This document shows positions 48,934 to 52,069 of a stretch of 64,000 nucleotides of DNA, one piece after another. Each line of letters opens with the position of its first letter. Position 1 is the first letter of the stretch. The position numbers and the translations under genes are program-made. The notes under the pieces were generated by a model. The model had not been told where the DNA came from and searched no databases. It saw nothing but the letters and a program-made list of their open reading frames with translations. The stretch is from positions 46,066 to 110,065 of the forward strand of contig NZ_ML703296.1 in the NCBI RefSeq assembly GCF_008520305.1, in the 5' to 3' direction. The DNA is from Mesorhizobium sp. SARCC-RB16n. GTDB lineage: Bacteria > Pseudomonadota > Alphaproteobacteria > Rhizobiales > Rhizobiaceae.

Positions 48934-50406
48934 TCAGACAACGATCGTTTTCAACCGTTCGGCGATGAGCGCGGCGAGCCGCGCCGCCACCTCGTCCTTG
49001 GTCATCTCGGGCCATTCCTCGACGCCAGCCTTCGATACGATCCGGACCCGGTTGCGATCGCCGCCCATCACGCCTGAAGGACCGATGCCGCTTTCGTGCG
49101 ACACATCGTTGGCGACGATGAGATCGGCGCCTTTCTTCCCGAGCTTGGCCTCGGCGTTGCGCAAGAGATCCTGCGTCTCGGCGGCAAAGCCGACGACTAG
49201 GCCTGGTCGCTGCTTGTGGTGGCCGATGCCAGCCAGGATGTCGGGGTTCTCGACCATGCGCAGCATCGGCGGGCCTTCGCCTGCCACCTTCTTGATCTTC
49301 TCACCGGCTGAATTCTCGGTGCGCCAGTCGGCAACGGCGGCGACAAACACCGCGGCGTCGGCGGGCAAAAGCTGTTCCACCGCGTCGCGCATCTCCTGCG
49401 CCCGTTCGACATGGACGGTCTTCACCCCGGCCGGATCGGCGATGGCGACGGGGCCGGTGACGAGGCGCACGTCGGCGCCGAGCCTTGCCAATACCGCGGC
49501 AATGGCGTGGCCCTGCTTGCCGGACGACCGGTTGGCGATATAGCGCACGGGATCGATCGGCTCGTGCGTCGGGCCTGACGTGACGATGATCTTGCGCCCC
49601 GCCAGCGGCTTGGGCTTGGCATCGAGCAGCGCCTCGATCGCGGCGACGATCTCCAGCGGTTCGGCCATGCGGCCTTCGCCCGCTTCGTTGCTCTCGGCCA
49701 TCTCGCCCTTGGCGGGGCCGACGAAGGTGATGCCGTCCTTGCCCAATGTCGCGCGGCTGCGGCGGGTGGCGGGATGCGACCACATCTTCGGGTTCATCGC
49801 CGGAGCCATCAGCACCGGCTTGTCGGTGGCGATGAGCACGGTCGAAGCCAGATCGTTGGCATGGCCATTGGCGAGCTTGGCCATCAGGTCGGCAGTGGCG
49901 GGCGCCACCACCAGGAGGTCCGCCTCGCGCGACAGTCTGATGTGGCCGACGTCGTGTTCATCGTTGCGGTCGAACAATTCGGTGAAGACATGGTCGGCGG
50001 AGAGCGCGCCGACCGACAGCGTCGTCACGAATTCCTGCGCCGCCGAGGTCATGACCACCCGCACCGCCGCACCACGCTCGCGCAACCGGCGGATCAGGTC
50101 GAGCGCCTTGTAGGCGGCGATGCCGCCGCCGATGATGAGCAGGATGCGTTTGTTGGAAAGTGTGCCTCGCGGCAAGCTCTTGCCTGCCAAGGCTGACGCC
50201 GGGGGCGGGGTGCCTCGCGAACTGGCCAGTTCGTGAAGGGCTCTCTCGATCTGGTCGAGACGGCCAACCGGACCGACCTGGCCGTCGACAGCGGCCCGGA
50301 TCATCACCCGCGCCTGTTCTTCCATGGAGCGATCGTTTTCCGCCGCCAGCCGGCGCAGCAGTTCCTTGACCTCATCGTCAAGGTTGCGGATCGTGATGCT
50401 GGCCAT
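48934..50406 (-). CDS. coaBC: RHH (FitA-like) domain fused to CoaBC
   Basis: A 490-residue protein, about 90 longer than usual CoaBC. Residues 1-40 (MASITIRNLDDEVKELLRRL, SMEEQARVMI) form a FitA/VapB-type ribbon-helix-helix domain. A linker of about 40 follows, then the flavin-dependent phosphopantothenoylcysteine decarboxylase (ILLIIGGGIAAYKALDL; VVAPATADLMAKLANGHANDL; PAMNPKMW), and phosphopantothenate-cysteine ligase (IIVTSGPTHEPIDPVRYIANRSSGKQG). It makes 4'-phosphopantetheine for CoA. ATG 50406 is nine bases after GGGGAG. Operator-like repeats lie upstream, suggesting autoregulation. It is the last gene after ubiE-ubiB. Confidence 0.93.
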   Translation of the reverse strand: MASITIRNLDDEVKELLRRLAAENDRSMEEQARVMIRAAVDGQVGPVGRLDQIERALHELASSRGTPPPASALAGKSLPRGTLSNKRILLIIGGGIAAYKALDLIRRLRERGAAVRVVMTSAAQEFVTTLSVGALSADHVFTELFDRNDEHDVGHIRLSREADLLVVAPATADLMAKLANGHANDLASTVLIATDKPVLMAPAMNPKMWSHPATRRSRATLGKDGITFVGPAKGEMAESNEAGEGRMAEPLEIVAAIEALLDAKPKPLAGRKIIVTSGPTHEPIDPVRYIANRSSGKQGHAIAAVLARLGADVRLVTGPVAIADPAGVKTVHVERAQEMRDAVEQLLPADAAVFVAAVADWRTENSAGEKIKKVAGEGPPMLRMVENPDILAGIGHHKQRPGLVVGFAAETQDLLRNAEAKLGKKGADLIVANDVSHESGIGPSGVMGGDRNRVRIVSKAGVEEWPEMTKDEVAARLAALIAERLKTIVV

Positions 50407-50407
50407 A

Positions 50408-50456
50408 TGATTGCACTCCCCTATCTTGCCTGATAGCGATGATAGCAATGCAATCA
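50408..50456. promoter_or_regulatory. Operator-like repeats upstream of the RHH-coaBC fusion gene
   Basis: TGATTGCA (50408-50415) and TGCAATCA (50449-50456) form an outer inverted repeat. Inside lie tandem TGATAGCG (50431-50438) and TGATAGCA (50440-50447), a 9-bp direct repeat. As I recall, TGATAGCA/TGCTATCA is the half-site bound by gonococcal FitA, a close relative of the fused domain. The block covers the space between the ubiB stop and the coaBC ribosome-binding site and start. Confidence 0.6.
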
Positions 50457-50494
50457 AATTGCCGCAAGCTGCCGGCCTCGCCGTGAAGGCAGGC

Positions 50495-52069
50495 CTAAAG
50501 CAGCTTCCAGGCGATATAGACCAGCGTCAGCGCAATCACCCAAAGCGCCACACGGCCGGATCGGCTGTAGCGCGCCTCGGCTTTGCCGATGGCGCGGGCG
50601 GTCGTCTCGTCAAAGCGCAACCCATGCTCGGCCATGAGGTCGATCTCGCGCGAGAGCCGGTCGGTGCGTGCCGCCAGCTCCGGAGCCTGGCGGGCGAGCG
50701 TCAGCAACGCCTTGGCGCCGTCGCGCGCGTCGACCATCATGCCACGCGGCCCGAGGTTTCCCGCGATCCAGCCGCCGACGACCGGTTCTGCCGTCTTCCA
50801 CATGTTGAAGGCGGGGTCGAGCGTGCGCGCCACGCCCTCGACCACCACCATGGTCTTCTGCAGCAGGATCAATTCAGGCCGCGTCGCCATGTCGAAAAGT
50901 TCGGTCACCTCGAACAGCAGCGTCAAAAGCTTGGCCATCGAAATGGTTTCGGCCGGCTGGCCGTGGATCGGCTCACCGATGGCTCGGATCGCTTGTGCGA
51001 AGGCTGAGACGTTGTGTTGGCGCGGCACATAGCCGGCCTCGAAATGCACCTCGGCGACGCGCAGATAATCGCGTGTGATGAAGCCGTAGAGGATCTCGGC
51101 GAGGAAGCGCCGTTCCTTCTTGCCGAGGCGCCCGGCAATGCCGAGATCGACGGCGACGATGGTGCCGTTTGCCTCGACGAACAAATTGCCCGGATGCATG
51201 TCGGCGTGGAAGAAGCCATCGCGCAGCGTATGGCGCAGGAAGGACTGGATGAGGTTGGCGGCGATCGCCTTCAGGTCATGGCCGGCGGCTTCGAGGCCGG
51301 CGATGTTGTTCATCTTGATGCCGTCGACCCATTCCATGGTCAGCACGTCGCGGCCGGTGCGCTCCCAGTCGACGGTTGGGACACGAAAGCCAGGGTCATC
51401 CCTGGTGTTCTCGCCGAGTTCGGAGAGTGCCGCCGCCTCGAGGCGCAGGTCCATCTCGATCTTGGTGGTCTGGGCCAGCGTTTCGGTCACCTCGACCGGC
51501 CGCAGCCGGCGCGAGGAAGGGATGTATTTCTCCTGCAGACGAGCGGCGAGAAAATAGCTTTCGAGATCGTGGAAGAAGCGGCGGCGAACGCCCGGCCGGA
51601 TCACCTTCACCGCCACTTGGGTTGCCACGCCGTTATGCATGGTGTCGGCGGTATGCACCTGGGCGATGGAGGCAGCCGCGACGGGATCGCCGAACTGCGC
51701 ATAGAGATCGCCCACCTTGCGCCCGAGCGAGGCCTCGATGGCCGCGATCGCTTCGGCCTTCGGGAAGGTGTGCATCTTGTCCTGCAGCATGGCGAGATCG
51801 AGCGCCATGTCGTTGCCGACGACATCTGGCCGCGTCGCCAGGAACTGGCCAAGCTTGACATAGGACGGGCCGAGCCGGACCACCGCCTTGGCCAACCGGT
51901 CGCTGCGCTCATAGGCGAGCGCGCGGCGACGGGTGAACAGCCGCGCCAGCCGCCAGCCGAATTTGGGCAGGCCGGACAGTTCCTCGCCGGGCAAGGCAGT
52001 GACGACGCCCTCGCGCACCAGCACCCAACCGGCCCGTACGAGCCGGAACCCCGCGCTGACGGTGCTCAT
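50495..52069 (-). CDS. ubiB: UbiB, ubiquinone biosynthesis ADCK-type kinase-like protein
   Basis: A 524-residue member of the ABC1/ADCK/UbiB family. The KxGQ motif is KLGQFLATRPD (about 72-82), with an A-rich nucleotide loop (AAASIAQVH) in place of a Gly loop. The catalytic HADMHPGN (about 285) and VDLG metal motif are intact, and a C-terminal membrane helix (VALWVIALTLVYIAW) anchors it. It supports the hydroxylation steps of ubiquinone synthesis. It lies 70 bp downstream of ubiE in the same unit. Confidence 0.95.
   Translation of the reverse strand: MSTVSAGFRLVRAGWVLVREGVVTALPGEELSGLPKFGWRLARLFTRRRALAYERSDRLAKAVVRLGPSYVKLGQFLATRPDVVGNDMALDLAMLQDKMHTFPKAEAIAAIEASLGRKVGDLYAQFGDPVAAASIAQVHTADTMHNGVATQVAVKVIRPGVRRRFFHDLESYFLAARLQEKYIPSSRRLRPVEVTETLAQTTKIEMDLRLEAAALSELGENTRDDPGFRVPTVDWERTGRDVLTMEWVDGIKMNNIAGLEAAGHDLKAIAANLIQSFLRHTLRDGFFHADMHPGNLFVEANGTIVAVDLGIAGRLGKKERRFLAEILYGFITRDYLRVAEVHFEAGYVPRQHNVSAFAQAIRAIGEPIHGQPAETISMAKLLTLLFEVTELFDMATRPELILLQKTMVVVEGVARTLDPAFNMWKTAEPVVGGWIAGNLGPRGMMVDARDGAKALLTLARQAPELAARTDRLSREIDLMAEHGLRFDETTARAIGKAEARYSRSGRVALWVIALTLVYIAWKLL

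Follow-up and report, generated by a model that had tools for sequence, protein, structure and literature searches.

Why should an enzyme of CoA synthesis begin with the DNA-binding domain of an antitoxin? The question is raised by a coaBC gene in a 64-kb stretch of DNA (the window), in which an earlier note, made from the letters alone, read a ribbon-helix-helix (RHH) domain of the antitoxin type joined to a complete CoaBC.

An antitoxin-type domain on a complete CoaBC

The gene, its domains and its neighbor are as follows.

48934-50406, minus strand: coaBC fusion gene, 490 residues, ATG at 50404-50406, no internal stop
50287-50406, minus strand: FitA-like RHH domain, residues 1-40 of the fusion (PF22513 match)
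50161-50286, minus strand: variable linker, residues 41-82, with low conservation among 61 loci
48937-50160, minus strand: complete CoaBC (CoaC decarboxylase and CoaB ligase), residues 83-490 (TIGR00521, PF02441, PF04127)
50495-52069, minus strand: ubiB, the left border of the toxin-antitoxin slot and our synteny anchor (TIGR01982, 552 bits; cut-off 487.55)

The N-terminal RHH is fused in frame to a complete CoaBC. Residues 2-40 match the FitA-like RHH family PF22513 (51.3 bits against a curated cut-off of 27, E 1.1e-13) and residues 83-479 match the full-length CoaBC model TIGR00521 (402 bits against an equivalog cut-off of 219.7, E 2.3e-120), scores that bear out the earlier reading; the frame likewise agrees with it in that the ATG precedes the RHH and no stop separates the latter from CoaBC. 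The proposed likeness to FitA is also upheld, as a profile of 13 RHHs including that of the window (A3) reaches the FitA structures 2H1O (E 8.5e-7) and 2BSQ (E 1.7e-6); FitA was not reached when the window RHH alone was used in a single-sequence search of solved structures. Dimers of the RHH are predicted to bind DNA, and the fusion, in which both catalytic halves are complete, is predicted to have CoaBC activity. Translation from an internal start after the RHH appears unlikely: 52 of the 61 window-type loci lack an in-frame ATG anywhere from residue 46 to core residue 8, and a start codon with a Shine-Dalgarno (SD)-like sequence occurs in that interval in 4.

The RHH of the window-type loci is under purifying selection. 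Pooled pairwise dN/dS estimates (Nei-Gojobori, without a significance test) for the 61 loci are 0.063 for the RHH, 0.393 for the linker, 0.074 for CoaC and 0.126 for CoaB. The corresponding values are 0.194, 0.576, 0.162 and 0.172 for the second-genus type, represented by 10 loci of which a second genus of the order supplies 9 and a sister genus 1, and 0.126, 0.444, 0.100 and 0.145 for 6 loci of the Phyllobacterium type. RHH residues 1, 2 and 4-9 are invariant in the 61 loci and residue 3 is 98% conserved; linker residues 46-82 have a mean identity of 54%. These loci were chosen by having the RHH, and the set cannot reveal its loss.

The same architecture, which the earlier note had suggested seeking in relatives, is found in the nearest genus, in the family (at least 21 genera) and in the second genus. 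Sixty of the 61 genomes searched in the nearest genus have coaBC, each with exactly one match covering CoaBC, so that no spare copy is in view; classification by profiles puts 45 of them among the fusions, including 40 of the window type, and assigns an antitoxin with a PIN toxin to 12 and neither to 3. The RHH is held by selection in the 61 loci but varies among close relatives, 15 of the 60 genomes in the genus being without a fused RHH. These 15 include L107 and L108 or near copies, with CoaBC cores 94.6% identical to that of the window and a toxin-antitoxin pair instead of a fusion. The best 80 of at least 573 relatives comprise 48 fused loci, 27 with a pair and 5 with neither; these are close relatives, chiefly from Mesorhizobium but also from Phyllobacterium, Aminobacter, Hoeflea and others, and many of the genomes are among the 60 just described. 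At least 31 of 151 genomes in the family, and at least 21 of its 109 genera, have a match running from the RHH into CoaC, in a survey that can miss a divergent fusion. In the second genus such a match is present in 59 of 60 genomes, the remaining one (80% complete) having the RHH only, and a class-wide sample of 240 genomes, of which 3 belong to the order, gave no RHH-covering match outside the order among the matches listed. With identical cores removed, we assembled 161 distinct loci, 88 fused, 35 with a pair and 38 with neither; outside the genus these come from 10 of 39 same-order matches, a chosen 20 and others, and are not a random sample.

Some individual loci are worth recording here. 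RHH-CoaBC fusions are also seen in two small genomes of the same family (L190 in G427, and G813; 1.6 and 1.9 Mb), and in genome G877 (locus L221) the fused gene is preceded, at a distance of about 0.6 kb, by another RHH match that lies in a separate frame of 161 residues. The linker between RHH and CoaBC in L140 carries a low-complexity insert that is tolerated in the protein, with a similar-looking stretch in L222; we take the insert to resemble a short dispersed repeat of rhizobia.

Half-sites in front of the fusion

Repeats just upstream of the gene had been pointed out as a matching operator. They are present when read on the minus strand, but 50456, which had been given as the end of the feature, is the outer edge of the operator and not of the gene.

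50449-50456, minus strand: candidate operator half-site 1, TGATTGCA, near invariant in 61 loci
50440-50447, minus strand: candidate operator half-site 2, TGCTATCA, 9 bp on from half-site 1
50431-50438, minus strand: imperfect half-site 3, CGCTATCA, 9 bp on again, less conserved across the clade
50408-50415, minus strand: half-site 4, TGCAATCA, nearly invariant and ATG-anchored, between the ribosome-binding region and the start codon, ending one base short of the ATG
50439-50444, minus strand: putative -10 element TATCAT inside the operator, suggested by conservation
50462-50467, minus strand: putative -35 element TTGCGG, 17 bp before the -10, suggested likewise, with CTTG conserved

A consensus promoter scan reported no promoter here. 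The 64 kb contain a single copy of the 17-mer TGATTGCATTGCTATCA when two mismatches are allowed; with at most one mismatch, five window-type genomes have one copy each, at the coaBC promoter, and the other three of the eight genomes searched (two with pairs and one from the second genus) have none.

We derived the half-site pattern from a first set of loci and then applied it to loci fetched later. At least two half-sites lie in the 100 bp before the RHH start in 59 of 61 window-type loci, 10 of 10 of the second-genus type, 12 of 17 other fusions and 32 of 35 toxin-antitoxin loci; none of the 38 loci without an RHH has two before coaBC, 11 of these having ubiB within 300 bases, as fused loci do, and the rest lying elsewhere in the genome. 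The mean numbers of half-sites per 100 bp are 2.87, 3.00, 2.12 and 3.14 for the window type, second-genus type, other fusions and pairs, respectively, and 0.05 for the loci without RHH or toxin, against 0.018-0.028 in shuffled sequence. In the later set, 19 of 21 fused loci have at least two half-sites and none of 11 unfused loci has any; the 21 remained from 26 after 5 were dropped because their CoaBC was already in the first set. As its fused loci again belong to this family and the second genus, and its unfused controls to other orders, the later set is neither fully independent nor fully matched.

In the toxin-antitoxin loci the half-sites precede the antitoxin rather than coaBC, none of the 35 having two just before the CoaBC core, and the 9-bp step is the commonest spacing there and in fused loci alike. 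The operator still precedes the fusion in three loci in which the ubiB stop was measured further away (L007, L027 and L077). Immediately before the RHH, half-sites are lacking in four fusions (L149, L063, L190 and L237), and five have a single one (L145, L059, L062, L064 and L231); L063 has a second RHH gene in front, and hence its promoter may lie further up.

The half-sites may also vary with the domain that follows them. In loci with Ser3 and unequal counts, T is more frequent than C at half-site base 4 in 77 of 77, and in loci without Ser3 this is so in 7 of 30, 16 of the 123 RHH loci being left out for ties or lack of sites. Independent pairs taken over supported branches gave a median of 4 in the same direction, 0 opposite and 1 without difference (p 0.125). 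An association of Ser3 with TGAT half-sites, TGAC being more common with other residues, is suggestive only, as is the idea that residue 3 sets base 4.

RHH proteins can activate or repress. The domain might bind DNA with other genes as its main targets, or might activate rather than repress coaBC. We consider this very unlikely, since the full 17-mer, with at most one mismatch, is confined to the coaBC promoter in all five window-type genomes, and the sites overlap the likely -10 and adjoin the start codon, a usual position for repression. Repression of coaBC itself is the reading that we carry forward.

The ubiB-coaBC slot and the origin of the fusions

The statement that no PIN toxin gene is adjacent holds for the window, where a search of all six frames of the 64 kb with a profile built from related toxins found no PIN domain, and thus the toxin gene beside the antitoxin that marks a type II toxin-antitoxin system is absent; relatives, however, have one exactly between the RHH and coaBC. 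The order in these pair loci (12 of the 60 genus genomes) is ubiB, antitoxin, PIN toxin and unfused coaBC. Two sample toxins belong to PF01850 and three sample antitoxins to PF22513, the remaining toxins being identified by a profile built from these toxins themselves.

In seven fusions of the Mesorhizobium type, antitoxins of the kinds found in pair loci run in frame into CoaBC without a toxin gene. Under names coined in this analysis, the fused antitoxins are of the kinds VapB-1 (L061 and L106), VapB-2 (L063), FitA-1 (L060, L064 and L109) and FitA-2 (L065). Alignment of the DNA places the missing toxin gene between matching flanks for L061 against L120, L063 against L115, L065 against L042, L064 against L033 and L106 against L114; L060 and L109 were assigned by the similarity of their antitoxin tails at the protein level, and the loci that best align with them as DNA match only around the RHH. 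The spacer between toxin and coaBC is retained in L061 and L106, and L060, L064, L065 and L063 preserve the antitoxin almost entire, its stretch beyond the RHH included.

We conclude that these fusions arose by toxin loss on at least four separate occasions, because four antitoxin kinds occur among the seven, and perhaps on as many as seven, because the joints differ. Origins were counted by these kinds and joints. Counting on the CoaBC tree was set aside: fused and pair loci are interspersed in it, many branches are weak (71 of the 158 inner ones are drawn open and 32 carry a star), and there seems to be recombination in the slot. The 61 loci of the window clade are older than, or different from, the seven sister fusions; the joint there holds no trace of a toxin gene, and the linker no trace of the spacer beyond chance. 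A BLAST match had suggested such a trace, but 2 of the 61 loci stand out from shuffles, against 3 of 61 for a control stretch. By analogy with the sister fusions only, the same origin by toxin loss may be supposed for it.

One could view the fused domain as a passive relic, toxin loss having left coaBC without a ribosome-binding site of its own and the antitoxin frame having been kept only for the translation of CoaBC. Wherever a toxin frame was called (24 loci), the toxin stops 3-33 bases before the CoaBC core, and therefore coaBC may depend on toxin translation, with an in-frame join perhaps the sole viable outcome; the joining may thus have been forced by translation and not chosen for DNA binding, and in none of the 161 distinct loci does an antitoxin stand alone before an unfused coaBC. 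A mere leader, however, would hardly hold the dN/dS of the RHH at 0.063 against 0.39 for the linker or keep the half-sites. Moreover, 3 of the 60 genus genomes have neither RHH nor toxin, so the RHH is dispensable there, and the slot does in places hold an RHH gene that lacks a toxin, standing in front of a second pair. We regard such a relic as very unlikely.

Another possibility is that the fused antitoxin serves mainly as a stable, built-in antidote against PIN toxins. The near-complete antitoxins of the recent fusions L060, L064, L065 and L063 would suit this, as would the PIN toxins found in the genus next to antitoxins of the same kinds. What follows the RHH in the window, Phyllobacterium and second-genus types, however, is a short or poorly conserved stretch, so that no toxin-binding tail is evident, and the half-sites are kept. 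An antidote strikes us as most improbable, and a DNA-binding role for the RHH remains our preferred reading.

The slot shows further arrangements. Two RHH genes precede one PIN toxin in L108, L115, L116, L118, L121, L128, L037 and L143; seven of the eight begin with a short, separate RHH gene that directly precedes the second. In L143 (1900-2581) the first antitoxin frame reads through into another tail resembling that of an antitoxin, as though a toxin had been lost from an earlier pair as well. The slot can also be empty, the CoaBC core lying 31-92 bases after ubiB in L041, L043, L044, L126, L131 and L148 (some being the same genome twice), with no RHH or toxin found there.

Probable autorepression and its parallels

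Taking these findings together, we think it likely that the N-terminal RHH is a working DNA-binding domain derived from a FitA/VapB-type antitoxin, through which CoaBC would repress its own gene. The idea of a metabolic autorepressor thus comes well through comparisons between genomes, namely, selection on the RHH, half-sites only where an RHH is present and one full operator per window-type genome. Weighing against it are the lack of a fused RHH in 15 of the 60 genus genomes, the fusions with one half-site or none and the negative promoter scan. FitA binds operator DNA via its RHH, and FitB stabilizes the assembly of FitA dimers, as given in excerpts of PMC3920265; in excerpts of PMC7794376, mycobacterial CoaBC is described as a dodecamer with CoaC at its core that is inhibited by CoA and its thioesters. 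We infer DNA binding, repression and tethering by the fusion along the following lines. RHH pairs of the CoaBC oligomer would bind the TGNNNGCA half-site array over the -10 region and beside the start codon and would thereby repress coaBC, the level of CoaBC being held by negative autoregulation. The oligomer would take over the tethering part of the toxin on the operator, and hence the fusion would repress its own promoter in proportion to its amount. Control of binding by ligands such as CoA, the substrates or, as the earlier note also allowed, flavin is conceivable by analogy with PutA.

More tentatively, and with considerable doubt, we postulate that the ubiB-coaBC gap of Hyphomicrobiales is a slot in which toxin-antitoxin modules come and go and repeatedly become the regulation of an essential enzyme: the toxin would be deleted, the antitoxin joined to CoaBC, and the dodecamer would serve as the tether on the former operator, its grip adjusted by CoA thioesters or substrates.

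What chromosomal toxin-antitoxin pairs are for is often hard to say. In the present case, relatives display stages between a toxin-antitoxin operon and an apparently self-regulating core enzyme, passed through several times with the promoter sites kept, which makes one origin of "trigger enzymes" testable and points to a possible transcriptional layer added to the control of CoA synthesis in rhizobia. Among the papers listed in searches of the open-access literature, we found nothing on an RHH or antitoxin domain on CoaBC, and those that name coaBC together with toxin-antitoxin systems look unrelated; subscription papers lie mostly outside that search.

Among known systems, CoaBC (Dfp; TIGR00521) provides both catalytic halves, which are complete in the fusion; the latter differs in its extra N-terminal RHH, the regulation described for the mycobacterial enzyme in excerpts of PMC7794376 being inhibition by CoA and its thioesters. 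With FitAB and the RHH-type VapBC systems, the fusion shares the RHH family, the kind and spacing of the half-sites and the position between ubiB and coaBC, but it lacks the toxin gene and has an enzyme joined to the antitoxin domain. The third parallel is trifunctional PutA (RHH, proline dehydrogenase and P5C dehydrogenase), in which an RHH is likewise fused N-terminally to a flavin enzyme; according to excerpts of PMC5293562, PutA represses its own gene, and only a subset of PutAs carries the RHH. A Pfam scan of the fusion found neither the proline dehydrogenase nor the P5C dehydrogenase domain. Further, the CoaBC fusion is a biosynthetic enzyme with an RHH of the FitA/VapB antitoxin kind, its relatives still keep the toxin, and the membrane switching of PutA is not expected of it. 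What it has in common with PutA is an RHH in frame on an enzyme together with likely sites in its own promoter. Hence, the best reading by analogy is that the CoaBC fusion would work like a PutA-type autorepressor while not being a member of the PutA family.
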